40,831 bases of DNA from assembly GCA_028280565.1 (NCBI GenBank), contig JANQLQ010000222.1, positions 1 through 40,831 of the forward strand, written 5' to 3'. Shown here one piece after another: positions 2,548 to 28,243 of this stretch (its first letter is position 1; each line of letters starts with the position of its first letter). The notes under the pieces were generated by a model, which was given only the letters and a program-made list of their open reading frames with translations, made no database searches and had not been told where the DNA came from. Origin of the DNA: Fulvivirga sp. (lineage in GTDB: Bacteria > Bacteroidota > Bacteroidia > Cytophagales > Cyclobacteriaceae). A program made the position numbers and the translations under genes.

Positions 2548-4012
2548 ATTGTGGTAATTGAAATGAAAAAGTAGTCCCCTTGTTAAGCTTACTCGAGAGC
2601 TTAATGGTAACATTATGGATCTCTAATATTTTCTTGACTATCGCTAATCCCAGCCCAGTGTTATTGTTATCCAGGCTGATGCGCTTGTCGCCTATATGGT
2701 ATCGGTCAAATAGGAAAGGGATCTGTTCTTTTGGAATACCCGGACCGTTATCTGAAACCTTTATCTCTACGTATTGATCAGAATTATCGATCTCCAACAT
2801 GATCTGCCCCTTTTTTGGGGTGAATTTCAAGGCATTATCTACCAAGTTTTGTAAAACACGCTCGATGAGAGATACATCGGCGTATACCATGGATCGCGTG
2901 GGGCTAGTTGCACTGGTAAGTGTTATATCTTTCTTTTGAGCGACCAGTTCAAATTTTTGGCAGATGTCACTGATAAGATCTTGTATAAAAAAGGGCTCTT
3001 TTTTCGGTTTTACTTGCTTCGCTTCCAGTTTCGAAAGCTCAAACAATTCCTCAACCAATTTTTTTAAACGGTGCGTACTTTCGAGGGTAATTTTCAGGTA
3101 CTTCTTCCTTTCCTCTATGGTGAGCTGGTCGCTCTTCATCATCAAGGTCTCTACGTACCCGTGGATCACGGCGAGGGGGGTCCTTAGATCGTGGGACACA
3201 TTCCCTACAAGTTCCCTCCTTAGGTTTTCCATGGACTTAAGGTTCTCAATGTTACCCACGATAGTATCCGCCATCTCGTTGAAAGCTATGGCAAGATCAT
3301 TAATGCCGCCCCCCTCTTTTACAGGAATCCGTGCACTCATTTCCCCGGCTTGGAACCGCTTTACCGTGGTTATGATCTTATCGAGATTTTTAGTGATCAG
3401 CCAGATGGCCAGTATGCCCAGTGCCAATGCAGATAGGAGGGCTAGTAGCATGGCCCTGCCTCCCAGCTTTAAGATATAGCTATTGAAGACCTTTTCCGAG
3501 GCTGACTCGTACTCCTCGCTAGCCAGTATCACGTATATATATGCGATGGTCCTTTCATCTTCCACGATCCCTGCGGCAGAGAAAACCTTTTGTTTGCCGG
3601 GGTTCCTGGGATCATCTCCCTCTATGTATTGTTGTCCTTTTGAGGCAATAAATTTTTGAATAGGGGCTAGGTCCACACGTTCAAGCTTCACCTTTTTATA
3701 AGGGGCCACATAGTTCAGGATCACCCCATCGGCATCCAAGATGTATACTTCTATGCTAGGATTGATCGCCATCATATGCCCCATGATCTCGTCGGTAGCC
3801 GTTGTGTCTAACAGCCCTCCTACGTAGGGTTTGACTTCCGCTATGATGTGCTCGGCGATGTCTGCATTTAACCGCTGATTACGCTCTTGGACATATTTTT
3901 CAGATAAGTTAATGGTAATCAAGACGTAGGCAAATCCCACCACCACTAGCAGCCCGGTAAGGGTGATCACGATCTTCCAGAAAAAGCCTTTGGAGGAGTT
4001 ATGATTATTCAT
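2534..4012 (-). CDS. HAMP-domain sensor histidine kinase
   Basis: A membrane sensor kinase of 492 residues if started at the ATG at 4012, just 4 bases after the regulator stop; the ATG at 4060 would overlap that gene. TM1 is at about 13-35, an extracytoplasmic Cache/PAS-like sensor (VYILDADGVILNYVAP) lies between, TM2 is at about 187-207, and a HAMP segment follows to about 260. The dimerisation motif VGNVSHDLRTPLA has His274 as the phospho-acceptor. The ATPase end has NLVDNALKF (N box), DNGPGIP (G1) and GLGLAIVKKI (G2). Overall it resembles PhoR/BaeS-type kinases. It is co-transcribed with its regulator and, by overlap, with the lipoprotein and barrel genes. The ligand is unknown; an envelope signal is inferred. 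Confidence 0.93.
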   Translation of the reverse strand: MNNHNSSKGFFWKIVITLTGLLVVVGFAYVLITINLSEKYVQERNQRLNADIAEHIIAEVKPYVGGLLDTTATDEIMGHMMAINPSIEVYILDADGVILNYVAPYKKVKLERVDLAPIQKFIASKGQQYIEGDDPRNPGKQKVFSAAGIVEDERTIAYIYVILASEEYESASEKVFNSYILKLGGRAMLLALLSALALGILAIWLITKNLDKIITTVKRFQAGEMSARIPVKEGGGINDLAIAFNEMADTIVGNIENLKSMENLRRELVGNVSHDLRTPLAVIHGYVETLMMKSDQLTIEERKKYLKITLESTHRLKKLVEELFELSKLEAKQVKPKKEPFFIQDLISDICQKFELVAQKKDITLTSATSPTRSMVYADVSLIERVLQNLVDNALKFTPKKGQIMLEIDNSDQYVEIKVSDNGPGIPKEQIPFLFDRYHIGDKRISLDNNNTGLGLAIVKKILEIHNVTIKLSSKLNKGTTFSFQLPQYESA

Positions 4013-4016
4013 CTTC

Positions 4017-4724
4017 TCATGGATTAATGGGGAGATCATCATTGAATCGATAACCCACACCCCAGGTGGTAAGAATGTAAGTAGGATTGGAAAGGTCCTC
4101 TTCTACTTTGGCCCTGAGGCGATTAATATGTGAGTTTACCGTATGCTCATATCCTTCAAATTCATATCCCCACACCAAAGAAAGCAGCTTATCTCTCGAA
4201 TAATTTTTGCCTGGGTTGGAGGCAAGCAGGTAGAGTAGGTCAAACTCCTTGGGAGTCAGGTCGATCCGCTTATCTTTGATCATCACCTTTCTCTTGCCTT
4301 GGTCGATCTGCAGTAGGCCATATTTAAGAATTTGTGCCGGGGGCTCTTCATCCTTCAGCATGTCCACCCTCCTGAAAATCGCTTTTACCCTCGCCAGGAA
4401 TTCACGTATGCTAAAAGGTTTGGTGAGATAATCATCAGCCCCGGTTTCCAAGCCCATGATCTTATCGATCTCTTCGCTCCTGGCGGTTAACATCAAAATA
4501 GGGGTTTTGATCTTATTGGCTCTCAAATCCCGGCAGATCTCCAGCCCATCTTTGTCCGGCAGGTTAATATCCAATATGACCAGGTCAAGTTGCTCAAGAA
4601 GGGCGGCATTATACCCCGCCTTACCATTGGTAAAAGACATAAGATGGCACTCCAGGTCCTTTAAGTGCAGCTCGAGCAGCTCTTTGATATGAATATCGTC
4701 CTCGATGAGAAGAATTTTTTTCAT
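4017..4724 (-). CDS. OmpR/PhoB-family response regulator
   Basis: The start is taken at the ATG at 4724 (MKKILLIEDD); the upstream ATG at 4745 would include the promoter. The receiver has the acidic pair in IEDD (residues 9-10), phospho-acceptor Asp in LVILDINLPD, Thr in LMLTAR and Lys in YLTKPF. A winged-helix DNA-binding domain follows (about 130-230: DLTPKEFDLLYLLASNPGK, then the HTVNSHINRLRAKVE recognition helix). It is the first gene of a four-gene operon with its kinase, lipoprotein and barrel. The promoter has a TAnnTTTG element 5 bases from the ATG and an 11-bp-spaced direct repeat where the -33 box should be, which suggests direct autoregulation. Confidence 0.94.
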   Translation of the reverse strand: MKKILLIEDDIHIKELLELHLKDLECHLMSFTNGKAGYNAALLEQLDLVILDINLPDKDGLEICRDLRANKIKTPILMLTARSEEIDKIMGLETGADDYLTKPFSIREFLARVKAIFRRVDMLKDEEPPAQILKYGLLQIDQGKRKVMIKDKRIDLTPKEFDLLYLLASNPGKNYSRDKLLSLVWGYEFEGYEHTVNSHINRLRAKVEEDLSNPTYILTTWGVGYRFNDDLPINP

Positions 4725-4729
4725 TATAT

Positions 4730-4737
4730 CAAAACTA
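4730..4737 (-). promoter_or_regulatory. TAnnTTTG -7 element of the regulator operon
   Basis: On the minus strand this reads TAGTTTTG, a perfect match to the Bacteroidota primary-sigma -7 consensus. Its last base is 5 bases from the ATG at 4724, so transcription should start at or within a base or two of the start codon (a leaderless mRNA). No TTG-type -33 box is present at the usual distance; the direct repeats at 4747-4765 lie there instead. Confidence 0.55.
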
Positions 4738-4746
4738 ATTACCAAG

Positions 4747-4765
4747 TATCACGAAAATATCACGA
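4747..4765. promoter_or_regulatory. direct repeat, candidate response-regulator box
   Basis: TATCACGA occurs at 4747-4754 and again at 4758-4765, an exact 8-base direct repeat with an 11-base period. This is the spacing of tandem sites bound by OmpR/PhoB-type dimers. It lies 10-28 bases upstream of the -7 element of the operon that encodes just such a regulator, in place of the -33 box, as at activator-dependent promoters. Binding is inferred. Confidence 0.5.
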
Positions 4766-4908
4766 CACCCGGCGAGGCTAGGGAAAGTCAGATCGATGAC
4801 TTTTTTTGAGTGGTCAAGGACTAATTCAAGTAAAGAAACTGGAAATATTATTTAACACAAGTCAGTGAGCTGACAAGAACTAATTTTATCGAATTTTAGT
4901 TAATTCGT

Positions 4909-4916
4909 TAAATTTG
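4909..4916 (+). promoter_or_regulatory. TAnnTTTG -7 element before the gene at 4922
   Basis: TAAATTTG matches the Bacteroidota -7 consensus exactly and ends 5 bases before the ATG at 4922, the same geometry as the divergent regulator promoter at 4730-4737. A leaderless transcript is predicted. No good -33 TTG is visible 19-21 bases upstream, so the match could be fortuitous in this AT-rich stretch. Confidence 0.45.
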
Positions 4917-4921
4917 GAATT

Positions 4922-5407
4922 ATGTTCGTGTCATTTGAAAATATGCCGCCGGAGTCCAGGGCCTGGGTATACCAAGCGAATAGAAAGCTGAACCCTACTG
5001 AAGAGGACTCCATACACCAGTTGGCCCAAGAGTTCTTGGGCTCATGGGCCGCACATGGTGCCGCGCTCAGGGCTTCTTTTAAAATTATGCATAACCAATT
5101 CCTGGTGATATTGGTGGATGAAAACCATAATATGGCCAGTGGGTGCTCTATCGACGCCTCGGTACATTTCGTACAGCAACTGGAGCATCATTTGGGCCTA
5201 AACTTCTTTGACCGGACCAAAGTAGCCTTCATTTTAAACGATGAGGTATTCTTAGAATCACTCAATGACTTAAAAAACAAAGTAAACGAAGGTACTATTC
5301 GCAAGAATACGTTGACCTTTAATAATTTGGTCCGAAACAAGCAGGAATTAGAAGAGCAGTGGCTGGTGCCGGCTGAACAGACCTGGCTCGGACGTTATTT
5401 TAAATAA
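4922..5407 (+). CDS. conserved Bacteroidota protein of unknown function
   Basis: A 161-residue cytoplasmic protein with no signal peptide or membrane segment. It looks like a small conserved family of Bacteroidota whose N-terminus runs FENMPPESRAWVYQANRKL, with a later WAAHGAALRASF segment and a GCSIDASVHFVQQLE stretch. Such proteins are sometimes labelled 'ABC transporter ATPase' in databases, but no Walker A, signature or Walker B motif is present here, so that name is not adopted. It is read divergently from the two-component operon and precedes the PorE-like gene by 64 bases on the same strand. The function is not known. Confidence 0.8.
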   Translation: MFVSFENMPPESRAWVYQANRKLNPTEEDSIHQLAQEFLGSWAAHGAALRASFKIMHNQFLVILVDENHNMASGCSIDASVHFVQQLEHHLGLNFFDRTKVAFILNDEVFLESLNDLKNKVNEGTIRKNTLTFNNLVRNKQELEEQWLVPAEQTWLGRYFK

Positions 5408-5471
5408 CAGGCAACAATTAAAAATGGGCTTTCGTTACTTTCTTAGGGTTAATTCTGTATAATTTTAACCA

Positions 5472-7496
5472 ATGAGTACCATGAAAACCACTGTAAAATT
5501 CAGCCTAATTTTACTTTTAGGACTGTCGGCGGCGTCCTGTAATTTAGAAAAAAAGGCTTTCAAGTCTTTCGAGGTGGCCGAATATCAATATGTCATCTCT
5601 CTTTATGAGAAGGTACTAAAAAAGGATCCTGAAGACGCTGAAGCCAATTATTTTATTGCTGAATCTTACCGTCTTTCTAATCGTCTCCACCAAGCGCTGC
5701 CGTATTATGAGAAAGCCATTGCGAATGGCATGGAAAATGACTCTATCGGCCTGTTTTACGCATTTGCCCTAAAAGTCCAAGGTAATTATGACGAGGCCGA
5801 AAAGCAATTGGATAAATTTTTAAAGGAGAGTGAAAATGAAAAATACCTGGCCCGCGCTGAAGAAGAATTTAACAATTTAGACTTTTTAGAAGAGTTAAAG
5901 ACCAAAAAGAACTATTTCAAGGTTAAAAACCTGGAAGCAGTCAATAGCGGGGCCGCAGAATATTCCCCGGTATATAACGATGGCAAGCTTTTTTTCACCT
6001 CGTCACGCGGCGATAATAAGATCTACCTAGGTTCAGGCACACCATTCACCAACATTTATTCGGCAGATACCCGGGGTGCGAGGGTGAAGTCAGAAAGCAT
6101 AAGGGCGCTTAACGAGGTGATCAATAGCCCGATCACCAACGAAGGTTCCGTGACCTTTAGCCCGGACGGTAAAACGATGGTCTTTGCGAAAGGAAACTCA
6201 GGCAAAAGAAAAGGCACTGCTGACGTGAACCTATACATCACGCGAAACAGGAACGGGGTTTGGACGGAGCCGCGTATGTTAAATATCAACAACCCTGGCT
6301 ACTGGGACTCTTCTCCTGCTTTTAGCCGCAATGGTAAAACATTATATTTTGCCTCCAATCGCCCAGGAGGATATGGAGGTACCGATATATATTCCGCACG
6401 ACAAAATGCCCGCGGCCGGTTCTTTAAAGTAAAGAACTTGGGACCCGAGATCAATACCTCCGGCAACGAGATGTTTCCTTACATTTCCGATGATGGTCAC
6501 ATGTATTTTTCCAGTGACGGGCATCCCGGTTTCGGGGCATTGGACCTTTTCGTGGCGCGCAGGGTGAATGGGCAGATTACATTGGAAAACCTCGGGGAGC
6601 CGGTCAATTCCAATGCTGATGATTTTGGCATTCACCTCTTTAAAGCGGATCGTGGGTTTTTTACCTCCAACAGGGAAGGAGGCAAAGGAGATGATGATAT
6701 TTATACATTCGTGAATGAAGACCCTGATCTGAAAGTGGTGAACTACTTCTTAGAAGGGGTAACGATGACGCCGGGGAATGATGGTAACTTATCCATACTA
6801 CCCAACGTGCGCGTGGAGCTGAGGGATTATAAAGGCGAAGTGTTAGATGAGACCACTACCCGTGATGACGGCAAGTTCCTATTCCGGGTCTACGAACATG
6901 AACACTACAACTTGATCGGTGAAAAGGTAGGAGGAAATGATCAATACCTGGTGACCCGCGAGCAATTCACCACTGTAGGTAAAGCCGTGGACCGGACTAC
7001 CCTCACCAAACTGGTGACAGACATAAAATTCGATACGCTACTAGTGCTGGAGAAAATAGAAAAAGACAAAATTTTTGTATTGGATAATATTTATTATGAC
7101 TTGGATAAGTCAGACATACGGGAGGACGCCGCCATCGAGTTGGACAAACTCGTGGTGATACTCAATGATAACCCCGAATTGAAAATTGAACTGAGCTCCC
7201 ATACCGATGATCGCCAGACGGATGCCTATAACCTGAACCTTTCAGAAAGAAGGGCTAAGTCTGCCGTGAAATACATTATCTCACAAGGCGTATCCGGGGA
7301 CCGGCTGGTGGCAAGGGGATATGGGGAGTCTAAGTTGCTCATTCCTAATGCCAAAACCGAGGAGGAGCACCAGGTAAACCGCCGTACGGAGTTTAAGATC
7401 TTGGAAATTGGACAGAAGAGAACAACGACCACCTCACCGGATGAATTTGACGAAGACCGGTACTTCGATGATGAGGAAGATAGCGGGGAAAATTGA
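5472..7496 (+). CDS. PorE-like T9SS lipoprotein (TPR, PD40, OmpA)
   Basis: A 674-residue lipoprotein with lipobox SAASC (Cys23); an alternative start is the ATG at 5481. TPR repeats occupy about 35-135 (YEKVLKKDPEDAEANYFIAE). A beta-propeller of PD40/WD40-like repeats runs to about 415 (YSPVYNDGKLFFTSSRGD, VTFSPDGKTMVFAKG, PYISDDGHMYFSSDG). A carboxypeptidase-regulatory-like fold lies at about 435-510 (PNVRVELRDYKGEVLDETTT), and an OmpA peptidoglycan-binding domain at about 535-650 (IYYDLDKSDIR, LSSHTDDR, LSERRAKSAVKYI, NRRTEFKI). This order is that of Porphyromonas gingivalis PorE, which links the type IX secretion machine to peptidoglycan. Bacteroidota carry many TPR/PD40/OmpA paralogues, so the exact orthology is inferred. 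The acidic tail (DEFDEDRYFDDEEDSGEN) is unusual. Confidence 0.85.
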   Translation: MSTMKTTVKFSLILLLGLSAASCNLEKKAFKSFEVAEYQYVISLYEKVLKKDPEDAEANYFIAESYRLSNRLHQALPYYEKAIANGMENDSIGLFYAFALKVQGNYDEAEKQLDKFLKESENEKYLARAEEEFNNLDFLEELKTKKNYFKVKNLEAVNSGAAEYSPVYNDGKLFFTSSRGDNKIYLGSGTPFTNIYSADTRGARVKSESIRALNEVINSPITNEGSVTFSPDGKTMVFAKGNSGKRKGTADVNLYITRNRNGVWTEPRMLNINNPGYWDSSPAFSRNGKTLYFASNRPGGYGGTDIYSARQNARGRFFKVKNLGPEINTSGNEMFPYISDDGHMYFSSDGHPGFGALDLFVARRVNGQITLENLGEPVNSNADDFGIHLFKADRGFFTSNREGGKGDDDIYTFVNEDPDLKVVNYFLEGVTMTPGNDGNLSILPNVRVELRDYKGEVLDETTTRDDGKFLFRVYEHEHYNLIGEKVGGNDQYLVTREQFTTVGKAVDRTTLTKLVTDIKFDTLLVLEKIEKDKIFVLDNIYYDLDKSDIREDAAIELDKLVVILNDNPELKIELSSHTDDRQTDAYNLNLSERRAKSAVKYIISQGVSGDRLVARGYGESKLLIPNAKTEEEHQVNRRTEFKILEIGQKRTTTTSPDEFDEDRYFDDEEDSGEN

Positions 7497-18038: not shown

Positions 18039-18353
18039 CGTCCTCGAAAATTGGACTTGATAATAAAACGTCTATTCTTTTGCAAAGAAGGATACATTTT
18101 TAAAACGTTTCGGGTAATGTCAACCTCGCAATGAGCAGTTTAATCGGGATTTTGTGGTTCTAAGCCCGGTTTTCATTTTTTTTTGCTCGCCCAAAAGAAA
18201 ACGAAACAAAAGAAAAGGGCGCCAGCAACCAAGCCCATTTTCCCCGCGAAACGCTCTATCCTGCCCCTATAGGCTGCTTCCCCACAGGCCTCAAATGTGC
18301 CGCGCTGTTGCTGGATGTCTGCCCTCCATACGTCACTTGAATTTTTAATGATG
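18039..18353 (+). repeat. ~300-bp dispersed repeat, copy 1
   Basis: It is homologous along its length to 27931-28243 and 40066-40366. Best-conserved blocks are TTGTGGTTCTAAGCCCGGTT (18152-18171), the purine tract between GCCC and GGGC (18188-18221), and CCCACAGGCCTCAAATGTGC (18283-18302). All three copies keep an in-frame 61-65-codon GTG-started reading frame (18154-18348 here; product begins MVLSPVFIFFC and has KRKRNKRKG). No transposase, and arms are not simple inverted repeats. MITE-like element or RNA are both possible. Confidence 0.7.
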
Positions 18354-23221: not shown

Positions 23222-23755
23222 CACCGTGGGTTTATGTTTTGACTTCCACGGGATGATCGCGTTTTTAAACCTATCTTAGAATAATCTTATCCTGTTTTTT
23301 TACTTTTTTGATAATGCTATAAAAGCTTACATGGGACAGGTATATCCTTAAGCCAGGGGGCATTTTTCCATAAAAATTCGTCACTTGCTATCTAGCGATA
23401 GTACTGCCGGGCAGTTTGGGATTATGCGGTAGTGCAAATTACAAGGTTGTAGGGCAGGCAAAAGGTGACAATTTCCATAGGCATTTTAAGTCATTTTTTG
23501 AAAACCTACCACCCGCTTATAAGCCAGGTCGATAGGCCAAACTACAACAAAGCTCACAAATATTCACATCACTAGTGTATAGTTCTATTACTAGGAGCTG
23601 GGCAGATAACTGCCTGATTTGCAACTAATTATAAATAGAATTATATAAATCACCTTCTATTTTGTTTAAATGACAATAAATCAACTTTAGATTCCAAAAT
23701 TAATGGAAAAATATATAAAAATCCTTAAATAATACAAATTTTTGTTAATTAAAGC
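23222..23755. other. gene-free upstream region of the peptide cassette
   Basis: No gene is supported. A weak CCGTGG/CCACGG hairpin (23224-23251) follows the thioredoxin-fold gene. From about 23620 the sequence becomes very AT-rich up to the peptide gene at 23833. Nothing else was recognised. Confidence 0.45.
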
Positions 23756-23786
23756 TTGTTTTTAGTTTTTCGGTTTGCTAAGTTCG
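23756..23786 (+). promoter_or_regulatory. candidate promoter of the 45-aa peptide gene
   Basis: TTG at 23756-23758 and TAAGTTCG at 23779-23786 (one mismatch to TAnnTTTG) are 20 bases apart, the usual -33/-7 spacing in Bacteroidota. Transcription would begin near 23793, leaving a ~40-base A-rich leader before the ATG at 23833. Confidence 0.35.
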
Positions 23787-23832
23787 TTCCTACATTATTT
23801 GAATAAATTCAATAAAATAAACTACTTAAGCT

Positions 23833-23970
23833 ATGTCTGTTAAACTGAAAGAACAACAATCCTCTACTCAATCTAAGAAAGACCTGGTCGATAACCTTGT
23901 CTCTAAAAACTTAGGAAATCCTATTATCGCTTGTATCGCGTGCATAGGCGAGGGAGATTTCCCGGGTTAA
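23833..23970 (+). CDS. 45-residue candidate peptide precursor
   Basis: A short gene below the usual gene-calling length. The product starts MSVKLKEQQSSTQSKKDLVD, a polar charged leader-like half with a helix-forming DLVDNLVSKNL, and ends with a small-residue tail NPIIACIACIGEGDFPG containing two cysteines (Cys34, Cys37) and four glycines after position 34. There is no signal peptide. The layout (leader plus Cys/Gly-rich core, strong hairpin immediately after the stop, then a longer gene on the same strand) is typical of RiPP or peptide-signal precursors. No known leader motif such as GG was recognised. Expression is supported only by the architecture and a plausible promoter. It could instead be a small metal-binding protein (CxxC). 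Confidence 0.6.
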   Translation: MSVKLKEQQSSTQSKKDLVDNLVSKNLGNPIIACIACIGEGDFPG

Positions 23971-23981
23971 TATCGGTATTT

Positions 23982-24018
23982 GGCAGAGCACATAGCTCTG
24001 CCACTTCACTTTTTATTT
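23982..24018 (+). terminator. hairpin between peptide gene and downstream gene
   Basis: GGCAGAGC (23982-23989), loop ACATA, GCTCTGCC (23995-24002): a perfect 8-bp GC-rich stem, followed by the T-rich ACTTTTTATTT. It starts 12 bases after the peptide stop and 40 bases before the next ATG. It is probably a partial terminator or 3'-stabilising stem giving more peptide mRNA than downstream mRNA. Confidence 0.7.
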
Positions 24019-24041
24019 CTACTTCAAAATCTTGATTATTT

Positions 24042-24530
24042 ATGAACCAGCAATTATTAATGCAGGCCCTGGACTGTGACAATGAACAAGCGATCTTAGA
24101 GGGTTTCATGGACCGCTACCAGGTGTCCTACCAAGAGGCAGAAGATATTTTCAAAGAGACAAAAAAGTGGCTATGGCTTGCTTCCCAAAGCGAAGTTACT
24201 GGTATCCCTGTATTTATTGATAAACCCCTGATGATCATCGATGAGATGTGGCATACTTTTATCCTGCACACCCGGTCATATTATAACTTTTGCCTTACGC
24301 ATTTCCAAAAATTGGTCCACCATAACCCTACGTCTCCCAAGGAAAAAGAAGAACGGCGAGACGAGTTTCTTAAAAATCCAACAGGTGCTATAAAAAAGCA
24401 TGAAGAGCAATTACGAACCCAATACAATCTAATTTATGATAATTTGGGTCCAGAAACCCTGTTAAAATGGTATGACACAATGGCTCAAAAGTATACACCT
24501 GAATACATCCGGTCCATTAAAAAATATTAA
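24042..24530 (+). CDS. DUF1399/GRDP-like protein
   Basis: A 162-residue soluble protein. Its hallmark is IDEMWHTFILHTRSYYNFC (about 65-83), matching the 'D-x-W-H-x-h-x-x-x-Y-x-x-x-C' core of the glycine-rich-domain-protein (GRDP, DUF1399) family. Upstream lies ALDCDNEQAILEGFMDRY and AEDIFKETKKWLWLASQ, and downstream LVHHNP and a charged helical tail. No enzyme motif beyond the conserved His and Cys was recognised. It follows the peptide gene by 71 bases with a hairpin in between, so it is probably co-transcribed at a lower level. It could process, bind or confer immunity to the peptide; this is inference. Confidence 0.7.
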   Translation: MNQQLLMQALDCDNEQAILEGFMDRYQVSYQEAEDIFKETKKWLWLASQSEVTGIPVFIDKPLMIIDEMWHTFILHTRSYYNFCLTHFQKLVHHNPTSPKEKEERRDEFLKNPTGAIKKHEEQLRTQYNLIYDNLGPETLLKWYDTMAQKYTPEYIRSIKKY

Positions 24531-24565
24531 TAAGCGCACTGCAATTCACAGGCATTCTTTTCTAT

Positions 24566-24587
24566 ATAGCTCAAGGAAAGCTATTTT
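24566..24587 (+). terminator. weak hairpin after the DUF1399-like gene
   Basis: ATAGCT (24566-24571) pairs with AGCTAT (24579-24584) around a 7-base loop and is followed by TTTT (24584-24587). The stem is short and AT-rich, so read-through to the kinase gene at 24615 is likely. Confidence 0.35.
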
Positions 24588-24614
24588 AGAGCATTGGGAA
24601 ACAGCCTGTTCCAT

Positions 24615-27600
24615 ATGCTCAAGATCTTCTCTGCAGCTTGCTTGCTTTTCACGTCTCACTTGGTAGTGGCACAGGAGCAGGGAGACTACTTTATCTCTAA
24701 CTTCTATCGATCGGATTACGACGCTTCTTTCTCAAATTTCGGGGTGTTACAAGCGAGCAACGGTCTCATTTATGTGGCCAATTTCGATGGAGTATTAGAA
24801 TATGACGGCCAAGAGTGGAGGCGTTATCCCATTGCCAATAACTCGGTGGTTTTGAGTATTGCTGATCATAAAGGTACGATATATGCCGGTGCATTGAAGG
24901 AATTCGGCTACTTCAAACCTAACCCTGCCGGTCACCTTACCTATCATTCCCTGTCTTCAAAGGTTTCCGAAACGACTCGTTTTAATGCGGTGAGAGCCAT
25001 AATCTCTACCCCAGGGGGAGTTTATTTTTTTTCTGGCGAGGCGATCTTCTTGTTTAACGATCAGCACGAACTCGTGCAGGTTTGGGAGGCGGGGGAGCAT
25101 AAATTTTACTTCTCACTGATCCAGCAGGAAGGTAAGTTTTACTGCCTAAGAGAAAAGTATGGCTTGGTAGAACTCAATGAAAGTACGCAAAGTTTACTTC
25201 CCCCGGAACAGGTAGAATCATGGAGTGCCATGACTTTTATCGATAAAATGGAAGGTGATTATGTCATTGGTACCCTTTCCAAGGGCATATATCGATGGGA
25301 TGGCCAAAGAATCCATGAACTCCAAACCCCGCTATCGGTATACGGCTCAAAAAATTTCCTTTCTGCGGGTCGTACTTTCAATGAGCATCTACAGGCTTTT
25401 GGTACGTTCAAGGGAGGTATTGTGGTCAGTGATAGTAGCTTCAGGCTATCCGCTATTATTGACAAGCAAGGCGGACTTCAAAGCGAAAACATAAAGGACC
25501 TTTATTTTGATCATCAAGGAGGGTTATGGGCAGCCATGCAGGAGGGAGTAGCACGGGTGGAGATCAATTCCCCTTGGACCCAGTGGCAAAGAGAACTAGA
25601 TTTCAAAGGTGTGCCATGGGATCTTGCAATATCAAACGGGGTATTTTACCTAGCCACATCAGAAGGACTATATTACAAAGACGGAATGGCGTTCAGGAAG
25701 GTAGAAGGGATAGACAGTAAGGTTTGGTCGCTATCCAATATTCACAACTACAAGGGTGACGAAGAGGTTTTACTGGTTGGCACCAATGACGGCTTGTTCG
25801 AGGTACGGGATAATAGTTCTAAAGAGATTTTCAATTTCCCAATTGTAAATAAGCTTTCGCGAAACACAAATATGGATTCTTTGGTGATCGTCGGTCACCG
25901 GTATGGCTTGAGTGCTGTAGGTTATGATAAAAACGGGGATTACTTTCAACGCGACTTGGCAGAGATATTGAATAACACGTACCAAGACATGTTGTTAGAT
26001 CCCCATGGTGTTCTTTGGGCTACTTCTAAGTTCATTGGTGTGTACAGGGTAACTGGTATTCATGGCCAGTCCGCGGAAACAAGCCTCTTTACCACGGAAC
26101 ATGGTCTGCCCGATGTTAACAAGTGGAATATCCACTACCAGGGAGATACGGTACGGTTTGCTAGTGATGATGGGGTATATTTTTTTGATGATCATACTTC
26201 AGCAGATTCTGCAAAGTTTAAAAGAGACACTACCTTCAGCCGGGAGCGGACACTTTTCACCCAGTTGGCCAATGGGGCTTACAAGATAGCAGGTGGCGCT
26301 AGTACTTTCGGTCTTACGGATGCGTGGCTACCCTACCGGCGGCTCCCGGAAATGGAGATCATGAAGGTGTACCCGGGTGAGGATGATATCCTGTGGGTGG
26401 CAGGCTCGGATGGGCTCTTCCGTTTTGATGGAAACATTCACCAGGACTATGGGCAGTCCTTTTATACACTGATCAGGAAAATCACCACCAGTGATTCTTT
26501 GCTGTTCAATGGTGCTACCACTGTGGATCATTTTAGCCAGGACTCCTCAACGGTTTTGCCGTATGTTGAAGCCCCTGTAGAACTCACTTACAGTTTTAAC
26601 AACGTACGGTTTGAATTTGCTGCTACTAACTACGAAATGCCCTGGAAAAATACCTACAGTTATTACCTCGAAAATAATGACAAGCAATGGTCTGCCTGGA
26701 CTCCCGAAAGCCGGAAGGAATACAATAACTTATCGCCGGGTGAATATACGTTTCATGTAAAATCAAAGAATGCTTACGATACGGAAGGTAGCATGGTGCA
26801 TTATTCTTTCATCATTTTACCTCCTTGGTACGAGACCAATTGGGCAAAAGCCCTATTCGCGGGGCTGGCAATCTTGGGCGTTTGGTTCATTGTAATGGGT
26901 TATTCTTATCGTGTACGTATGCAGAGAAGAAGGTTGAAGCTTATCGTAGCGGACAGGACGTTTGAAGTGATGTCACAAAAGAAAGAAATTGAACAGCAAA
27001 ATGCCCTGCTGAAAAAGCAAAACGCCGAGATATCACATCAAAAAGAAGACATAGAACTTAAAAACCATCTGCTCAATGAATCTCAAACCAAGGTGCTGGT
27101 CATCAACCGGGAGCTAAAAGAGTTGAACCTGTCGTTAGAGAAGAAAATTGATGATCGTACGTCCAAGATAAAAGCCACGCTCAAAAAGTTACAACAGATC
27201 AACCAAGAGCTGGACACCTTCATCTACCGGGCCTCGCATGATCTGAAGGGGCCCATCAGCCGTATCCATGGGCTTACGGCACTGGCAAAATTACAAACCC
27301 TCGATGGCCCGAATGCCAGGTATTTTAACCTCATACAGGACACCACCCGCGAAATGGAGATGTTGCTCTCCAAACTTATCCAGGTCCATGAAATATTGAA
27401 CTTGGAGGTGTGCAAAGAAGAGGTGGATATCCCATCTTTACTCCACGAGATCCGCGAATCGGTCAAGTTCCTGGATAAAAGTAAGGATACAAAATATTCT
27501 TTTGAGCTGGATGAGCAGGTGACGTTATTCACAGACCGGTACTTGATCAGTATTATCTTTAAGAACTTGGTGGATAATGCACTCACCTTCAAGAACCCTA

Positions 27601-27866
27601 CCCGCAAGGTGCCGCACGAAGTGAAGGTGACCACATGCAAAAGCAACGGGACCTTCGTGTTCAAGGTCTTCGATACCGGGATCGGGATAGATCCCCTGCA
27701 TTTTGAAAAGATCTATACCATGTTTTTCAAAGGCTCAAACCTTTCTAAGGGTAATGGGCTTGGGCTGTATTTAGTAAAACTGGCCAGCGATAAGCTCGGT
27801 GCTACGGTAGAAATGACGAGTAAAAAAGGAGAGTTTTCCGAATTTACGGTGCGTATCCCTACCTGA
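24615..27866 (+). CDS. Reg_prop/Y_Y_Y periplasmic-sensor histidine kinase
   Basis: The start is the ATG at 24615, which gives a clean signal peptide (MLKIFSAACLLFTSHLVVAQ); a TTG at 24594 is less likely. The 1083-residue product has a ~620-residue periplasmic beta-propeller of two-component-regulator propeller repeats (FGVLQASNGLIYVANFDGVL, IADHKGTIYAG), then a Y_Y_Y domain at about 650-735 (YSYYLENNDKQWSAW), TM at about 745-765, a long coiled coil (about 775-860), and a kinase core: SHDLKGPIS with His875, NLVDNAL, DTGIGID and GNGLGLYLV. There is no receiver or HTH, so it is a classical kinase needing a separate regulator, not seen nearby. Such sensors usually bind glycans or peptides. It sits 84 bases after the peptide cassette. 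Confidence 0.88.
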   Translation: MLKIFSAACLLFTSHLVVAQEQGDYFISNFYRSDYDASFSNFGVLQASNGLIYVANFDGVLEYDGQEWRRYPIANNSVVLSIADHKGTIYAGALKEFGYFKPNPAGHLTYHSLSSKVSETTRFNAVRAIISTPGGVYFFSGEAIFLFNDQHELVQVWEAGEHKFYFSLIQQEGKFYCLREKYGLVELNESTQSLLPPEQVESWSAMTFIDKMEGDYVIGTLSKGIYRWDGQRIHELQTPLSVYGSKNFLSAGRTFNEHLQAFGTFKGGIVVSDSSFRLSAIIDKQGGLQSENIKDLYFDHQGGLWAAMQEGVARVEINSPWTQWQRELDFKGVPWDLAISNGVFYLATSEGLYYKDGMAFRKVEGIDSKVWSLSNIHNYKGDEEVLLVGTNDGLFEVRDNSSKEIFNFPIVNKLSRNTNMDSLVIVGHRYGLSAVGYDKNGDYFQRDLAEILNNTYQDMLLDPHGVLWATSKFIGVYRVTGIHGQSAETSLFTTEHGLPDVNKWNIHYQGDTVRFASDDGVYFFDDHTSADSAKFKRDTTFSRERTLFTQLANGAYKIAGGASTFGLTDAWLPYRRLPEMEIMKVYPGEDDILWVAGSDGLFRFDGNIHQDYGQSFYTLIRKITTSDSLLFNGATTVDHFSQDSSTVLPYVEAPVELTYSFNNVRFEFAATNYEMPWKNTYSYYLENNDKQWSAWTPESRKEYNNLSPGEYTFHVKSKNAYDTEGSMVHYSFIILPPWYETNWAKALFAGLAILGVWFIVMGYSYRVRMQRRRLKLIVADRTFEVMSQKKEIEQQNALLKKQNAEISHQKEDIELKNHLLNESQTKVLVINRELKELNLSLEKKIDDRTSKIKATLKKLQQINQELDTFIYRASHDLKGPISRIHGLTALAKLQTLDGPNARYFNLIQDTTREMEMLLSKLIQVHEILNLEVCKEEVDIPSLLHEIRESVKFLDKSKDTKYSFELDEQVTLFTDRYLISIIFKNLVDNALTFKNPTRKVPHEVKVTTCKSNGTFVFKVFDTGIGIDPLHFEKIYTMFFKGSNLSKGNGLGLYLVKLASDKLGATVEMTSKKGEFSEFTVRIPT

Positions 27867-27930: not shown

Positions 27931-28243
27931 CGTTTTGAAAATTAGCTTTGATAGGAAAACGTTTAATTTTGGTAGGTTAAGCTATATTTTTGAGTTTTTT
28001 CGGGTAATGCCAGCCTGGCAACGCGCCGTTTAAACGAGATTTTGTGGTTCTAAGTCCAGTTTTCATTTTCTTTTGCGCACGTAAAAGAAAACGAAACAAA
28101 AGAAAAGGGCGCCAGCAGCCAAGCTCATTTTCCCCGCAAAACGCATTATCTAGCCCCTGTAGGCTGCTTACCCACAGGCCTCAAATGTGCCGCGCTGTTC
28201 CTGGAGGTCTCCCCTTCATACGCTACTTGAATTTTCAATGATG
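27931..28243 (+). repeat. ~300-bp dispersed repeat, copy 2
   Basis: It opens CGTTTTGAAAATTAGCTTTG, matching copy 3 closely. It keeps the TTGTGGTTCTAAG block, the AAAACGAAACAAAAGAAAAG tract, CCCACAGGCCTCAAATGTGC and an end at CAATGATG. The frame 28044-28241 encodes 65 residues beginning MVLSPVFIFFCARKRKRNKR, equivalent to those in copies 1 and 3. Confidence 0.7.

Follow-up and report, generated by a model that had tools for sequence, protein, structure and literature searches.

The locus described here raises the question of whether a very short gene and the gene that follows it form one system and, if so, what that system makes. Both genes lie in the window, the whole 40,831-nt stretch of DNA that was analysed, which is contig C44 of a 9.05 Mb Fulvivirga genome. 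The first encodes a short peptide, here called P, and the second a protein, here called G (Table 1). A preliminary description, made from the window alone, had reported P as a 45-aa frame with cysteines at residues 34 and 37 and G as a 162-aa frame on the same strand, and both were present as reported. It had also interpreted the two as a precursor peptide and its partner gene. Our comparisons support this interpretation through the co-occurrence of the pair, the conserved leader of P, the maturation-type genes that neighbour G in distant relatives, and the homology of G to MctA of the microcin 1229 cluster. We consider it probable that P and G represent an unnamed RiPP- or microcin-type family and that, in Fulvivirga and Marivirga, the product is a likely ligand of the kinase linked to the pair.

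Table 1. Features of the window around P and G
Feature	Position	Strand	Basis or remark
Promoter-like pair, TTTG + TATTTG	23774-23777 + 23796-23801 (span 23774..23801)	+	by eye
P, 45-aa precursor-like peptide	23833..23970	+	ORF, conservation beside G, leader matrix
Hairpin, perfect 9-bp stem, then T-rich tract	23981..24003; tract 24004-24019	+	between P and G
G, 162-aa protein with a DEMWH...Y...HH motif	24042..24530	+	predicted helical; MctA homologue
Propeller sensor histidine kinase (Reg_prop, Y_Y_Y, HisKA, HATPase_c)	24594..27866	+	Pfam; likely start ATG 24615

The short peptide P and its leader

P has the sequence MSVKLKEQQSSTQSKKDLVDNLVSKNLGNPIIACIACIGEGDFPG, with a leader motif, SKKDLVDNLVSKNL, at residues 14-27, and Cys34 and Cys37 forming a CxxC in the core. 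Searches of Pfam and NCBIfam with P gave nothing usable (the top Pfam match, at E 0.058, was below cut-off), and P used as a sequence query in its own genome found only itself at significance. A second P-G pair in this genome (contig C138, L046:1865-2562) was noticed because its G, 53% identical to that of the window, turned up in a DNA search. The peptide of this second pair lies upstream, its ORF overlapping the first ATG of the long G frame, and it has SK-x-DLV and a Cys-containing tail in common with P; no sensor kinase accompanies it.

If the preliminary description was right, a homologous short frame should recur beside the partner gene in related genomes, and such frames were found. Twenty-four of 26 close loci carry P upstream of G, one carries it downstream (L055) and one (L058) is truncated where its contig stops. 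The 24 upstream peptides are 33-61 aa long and lie on the same strand as G, and a downstream peptide was also seen in L096 and L097. The proposal that the pair would show a conserved leader and a more variable core was upheld by pairwise identities and by a leader matrix. This is the pattern of a RiPP, namely a ribosomal precursor with a conserved leader and a variable core. L041 and L043, for example, are 97% identical in the leader, 21% in the core and 73% in G, and the contrast is milder among the 59 pairs whose G proteins are more than 55% identical (mean leader 39%, core 27%). The comparison of the window with L039 departs from this, at 60% identity in the core and 55% in the leader, and taken by itself would not reveal the RiPP-like pattern. 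The number of cysteines in the core varies, and L052 has one.

The leader matrix covers 14 residues and was built from 17 peptides (16 of the kinase type plus the second peptide of this genome). The 4,672 short ORFs found in the other 74 loci were scored with it, with no minimum set. The top-scoring ORF adjoins G in 41 of the 74, while 4.0% of the ORFs lie in that zone (binomial 2e-37, for loci that are not independent); some of these 41 ORFs score low because no minimum was set. With one locus retained per 50%-identity cluster, the top ORF adjoins G in 15 of 31 (2e-12). Scores of at least 8 were reached by 23 of 189 near ORFs versus 6 of 4,483 far ORFs, and high scores include peptides of Pseudoalteromonas (L097), Uabimicrobium (L089), a member of Polyangiaceae (L114) and a cyanobacterium (L099). 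The top ORF lies outside the G-adjacent zone in the other 33 loci. Among these, L101-L103, L116, L123, L139 and L140 have Cys peptides that scored lower or lie just outside the zone, and others have no visible peptide. L116 and L123 (C-type) count as misses because their peptide is 1.2-1.3 kb downstream, and L101-L103 because theirs is within a longer frame that starts just outside the zone.

Upstream of P, the TTTG/TATTTG pair resembles the Bacteroidota -33/-7 promoter, and TACCTTTG/TACATTTG boxes were seen by comparison of 17 stretches, unscored, upstream of P in several relatives at a similar spacing to the peptide start. Between P and G, the preliminary description had noted a perfect hairpin followed by a T-rich tract. 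Both are present, with the stem measuring 9 rather than 8 bp and beginning 10 nt, not 12, past the stop codon of P (arms 23981-23989 and 23995-24003; loop of 5 nt). RNA folding of 23968-24041 gave z = -4.7, with none of 200 shuffles equally stable; terminator-like sites in 23600-24700 were not in excess (one versus a shuffle mean of 1.0). In a survey of the best stem per locus, with one mismatch allowed, 15 of the 25 loci inspected had a stem of at least 8 bp that begins 5-24 nt past the stop codon of the peptide; 0.93 loci would be expected from mononucleotide shuffles of those stretches. The stem sequence varies from locus to locus. The hairpin is probably an attenuator or a partial terminator. 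Elsewhere in the window, 18154-18348 and 28044-28241 hold near-identical ORF texts (MVLSPVFIFFC...KRKRNKRKGRQQPS...), which points to a repeat of about 200 bp.

The G family, GRDP-like proteins and MctA

Among 98 genomes searched, that of the window included, G was matched at E<=0.001 in 33 and strongly in 17 (26 places, E<1e-20). Scanning a single genome from each species yielded 130 relatives, and the 80 best of these were retained. These 80 come from Bacteroidota, Gammaproteobacteria, Cyanobacteria, Myxococcota, Bdellovibrio-like bacteria and Uabimicrobium, and the closest named relatives among them are a Flammeovirgaceae MAG and Fulvivirga species. When 395 genomes were sampled evenly across the phylum, 15 had a match at E<=1e-6, only two of them strong (G000 and G416, E<1e-50) and a third at 3.6e-15; with so few matches, and few of them strong, the distribution of G is patchy. 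The set of 91 loci used below leaves out L073-L082, L118, L120, L122, L126 and L136, which are duplicates fetched by another route, and nine weak relatives (L064-L072) stand outside these counts. A distant G-like gene was also seen on a Rhizobium gallicum plasmid (L157:3420-4010), between nifW and nifS.

The G of the window had no match in Pfam at E<=1 and nothing usable in NCBIfam. The preliminary description had called it GRDP- or DUF1399-like, a label that holds as a remote profile relation and fails as a direct match to PF07173. When 82 G proteins were compared at E<=0.1, 38 families were matched; PF07173 was absent among the 25 listed, and the other 13 had at most single matches, none better than E 0.058. 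A profile of these 82 members aligned at 98.9% probability over 82 columns with four GRDP-like domains, which were themselves picked from weak relatives of G. Of the four, three hit PF07173 with scores short of the cut-off (E 0.0028, 0.018 and 0.065) and the fourth does not match. The two groups have a D-x-x-W-H ... Y ... H core in common over the 82 aligned columns, but G differs in its small size and in the precursor-like peptide that accompanies it. The GRDP-like relatives at L027:1390-2748 and L029:1501-2859, both also weakly TIGR04222-like, carry Cys/Gly-rich C-terminal tails, and the gene adjoining L031:1306-2612 carries such a tail as well.

Eight positions are invariant in the 82-member alignment (F22, D67, M69, W70, H71, Y80, H94 and G136), with the invariance of W70 and H71 owed in part to selection, because the scan patterns included DEMWH and a 'WH' filter chose the alignment rows. 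L113, L114, L130 and L132 dropped out of this set of rows, which also leaves out L090, L101-L103 and L105. DEMWH and HH are also kept in the 26 loci from the whole-protein search and in MctA. D67, H71 and H94 could form a metal site. The predicted model of G (pLDDT 92.3) is helical apart from single-residue bridges. Its fold had no match in the PDB at E<=0.001, and the best PDB match by sequence (E 0.047) was rejected. A RiPP recognition element (RRE) has a winged-helix, PqqD-like fold. G does not resemble an RRE protein, as its model is helical and one of the 82 members matches PqqD, at E 0.023 only. When the P, spacer and G of L040 were modelled as one chain, the leader blocks reached pLDDT 95 and 90, the core and linker about 50, and pTM was 0.79. 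This model is suggestive of a leader that docks on G, a reading to be set beside the fact that a leader helix may score highly without docking.

A relative of G is encoded on E. coli plasmids of 7.9-12.9 kb (25 Escherichia records). On one of these, p0.1229_3 (NZ_CP028323.1), genes at 3094-3792, 3831-5423 and 5426-6319 agree in position with the deletions of mctA (3084-3792), mctB and mctC given in PMC8853679. According to that paper, microcin 1229 activity requires mctA, mctB and mctC, immunity lies in mctDE, iron represses the microcin, and CirA and TonB import it; its chemical identity is described there as unknown. MctA is 34% identical to the G of the window over 151 aa and aligns along the domain with the family at 100% hhalign probability; it contains a homologous G domain. 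The cluster mctABC(DE) is like the P-G pair in that a G homologue is needed for an exported microcin that is taken up by CirA/TonB (PMC8853679). It differs in its Cys-rich tail, which is fused to the C-terminus of MctA, in its partners, which are an ABC transporter and a cupin (the mctC product is a JmjC/cupin protein), and in that no sensor kinase is seen. Relatives in Azotobacter and Saccharospirillum have the same layout, with a Cys-rich tail on G followed by ABC and JmjC/cupin genes. This layout is absent in the window, where the Cys peptide is separate and a kinase comes next. A cupin gene is also reported with Mcc17978 of Acinetobacter.

A leader motif in the MctA-type tails, plausible by eye, was rejected when the matrix found no signal there (null fractions 0.36-0.69), and homology of P to the MctA tail is accordingly unsupported. 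The simplest unification of MctA with the P-G pair, as far as their sequences allow, would be that they are fused and split forms of one system. Borosins offer a comparison, as they too have a peptide-maturation protein with its core either fused in cis or separate in trans; in contrast to borosins, the P-G system has no methyltransferase.

Neighbours of G and the sensor kinase

By raw counts, in which ABC genes are common, 74 of the 91 loci fall into seven recurring contexts and 17 into others. The seven are kinase (23), a 306-aa protein (type B, 20), HlyD/ABC (9), S9 peptidase (7), methyltransferase plus P450 (6), other ABC (5) and grasp-with-spasm (4). These labels are BLAST clusters of which part of the members were typed: S9 peptidase in 5 of 7, P450 in 3 of 6, methyltransferase in 1 of 6, HlyD in one and C39 ABC in two of the 9 HlyD/ABC loci, and type B in 1 of 20. 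The grasp-with-spasm maturase pair (TIGR04192/TIGR04193) scored above cut-off in all four loci of that context. In L137, L138, L144 and L151, G is found within such operons beside KGG-type leaders, whereas neither maturase is near G in the window. L109 and L116 resemble class II microcins, with GG-leader Cys peptides, G, an HlyD-like gene and a C39 ABC exporter; in contrast, the leader in the window has no GG site and no exporter adjoins it. Genes of further tailoring types also lie near G, for TauD proteins in L094 and L117 and for a PLP decarboxylase in L099.

The 306-aa protein, which starts MSIFPKR, follows G in 20 Bacteroidota-type loci (e.g. L145:8474-9394), and the one tested had no Pfam or NCBIfam match. 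A TonB-receptor-like gene is present in 19 of these 20 loci, and a lipoprotein together with an ABC-2 permease in 17. In L145, the type-B representative, the best model for the TonB receptor was the siderophore receptor MxcH (515 bits; cut-off 925), the lipoprotein was DUF4374-like, just under cut-off, and an ABC-2 permease was present. TIGR04165 was rejected as an assignment for one type-B peptide (E 0.0021; 18 of 60 bits, far below cut-off). The type-B locus of Aureibacter adjoins CobN and ExbB-family genes, and in Uabimicrobium a P-type ATPase with heavy-metal-binding domains (L089:4863-7100) lies alongside G.

A same-strand gene for a sensor kinase of about 1,100 aa comes after G in 23 of the 91 loci, and P is present in all 23; the kinase domains were typed with Pfam in two of them, the window and L040. 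The genes upstream of the three vary between groups, namely L040-L043 (AsnRS-like by eye), L047-L049 with L051-L053, and the window with L039 and L044, which indicates that P, G and the kinase stay together while their context changes. The kinase is thus the third member of a conserved cassette in Fulvivirga, Marivirga and their kin, a membership that the preliminary description had not recognised. As in a pheromone cassette, a peptide gene is here linked to a receptor-type kinase. Three genomes (G002, G009 and G014) each have two kinase cassettes. Across 21 kinases, mean identity is 32% in the sensor regions and 48% in the kinase regions, a contrast commonly found in proteins of this sort. 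Inspection of the Fulvivirga cassette showed no tailoring enzyme, protease or exporter, and a search for C39 in the Fulvivirga genome gave a single match, on another contig.

The proposed system and its alternatives

Three other accounts of the pair were weighed. P could be a regulatory upstream ORF, an attenuator leader for G and the kinase whose peptide has no function of its own. The hairpin that directly follows P in 15 of the 25 loci inspected is in keeping with this, but it is the amino-acid sequence of the leader that is kept, with a Cys core that diversifies. In addition, three loci have P on the downstream side of G, and similar peptides elsewhere have GG leaders and lie in C39-exporter operons. 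We therefore regard a purely regulatory P as very improbable. Only slightly better placed, and still unlikely, is the idea that P is an unmodified small bacteriocin or a Cys-metal peptide and G its immunity protein or antitoxin. The two-gene layout and the CxxC of the window core agree with it, as do iron themes such as the TonB-receptor-like genes of 19 of 20 type-B loci (one typed) and the iron regulation of microcin 1229. Against it, G adjoins maturation enzymes of unrelated kinds, and in the MctA relative the Cys-rich tail belongs to G itself, which is needed for activity; immunity is assigned to mctDE (PMC8853679).

An account in which the Cys peptide is a metallophore or a metal-sensing ligand, rather than a cell-cell signal, is unlikely to a lesser degree than these two, and it overlaps our preferred explanation up to the last step. 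It draws on the MxcH-like receptor, DUF4374-like lipoprotein and ABC-2 permease of L145, on the CobN/ExbB-family neighbours in Aureibacter and the heavy-metal ATPase of Uabimicrobium, and on the iron repression and CirA receptor of microcin 1229 (PMC8853679). It is opposed by the varying number of core cysteines, down to the single one of L052, and by the window cassette, next to which no metal gene was seen.

We return to the preferred reading, a RiPP- or microcin-type system whose product is probably read by the kinase. In its components the system fits an established category, that of ribosomal peptide systems. Because of the comparative evidence, which consists of conservation, the leader/core pattern, synteny and the homology of G to MctA, we treat P and G as one system. 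From these observations we infer leader binding, core modification, export, a role for the hairpin and sensing by the kinase, as follows. P would be a ribosomal precursor with a helical leader (K-x-D/E-L-I/V-x-x-L) and a short Cys core. G would hold the leader helix and act on the core. It could do so as an enzyme, or it could be a chaperone by which the core is presented for maturation and export. The Cys core may be modified or kept reactive, and the product would leave the cell. The hairpin would let P outnumber G in translation. In E. coli, Azotobacter and Saccharospirillum the precursor would be the Cys-rich tail that extends G at its C-terminus (the MctA form), and in many other loci it would be encoded by a small gene of its own. 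In Fulvivirga and Marivirga, the mature peptide would most likely be read by the kinase, which has a large N-terminal propeller region, as a peptide signal or as a sensed self-product.

A wider proposal is possible, and we put it forward tentatively. G may be the hallmark of a new, phylum-spanning class of ribosomal peptides whose precursors come in split and fused forms. The class would be defined by a helical DxMWH...H protein, possibly a metal enzyme of Asp/His/His type that acts on Cys. Fulvivirga and Marivirga would then hold a three-gene signalling circuit of peptide, maturase and propeller receptor kinase, and some genomes would have two distinct channels. In the single literature collection searched, we found no link between a GRDP/DUF1399 protein and peptide biosynthesis, and no description of G as a hallmark protein, of its cross-phylum range or of its kinase-linked form.

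If this is true, G would provide a searchable hallmark for ribosomal peptide systems, many of which have no established RiPP enzyme alongside. It would also suggest that microcin 1229 is built from a G domain and a Cys-rich core. For Fulvivirga and its relatives, it would supply a candidate peptide ligand for one group of the large propeller sensor kinases of Bacteroidota.
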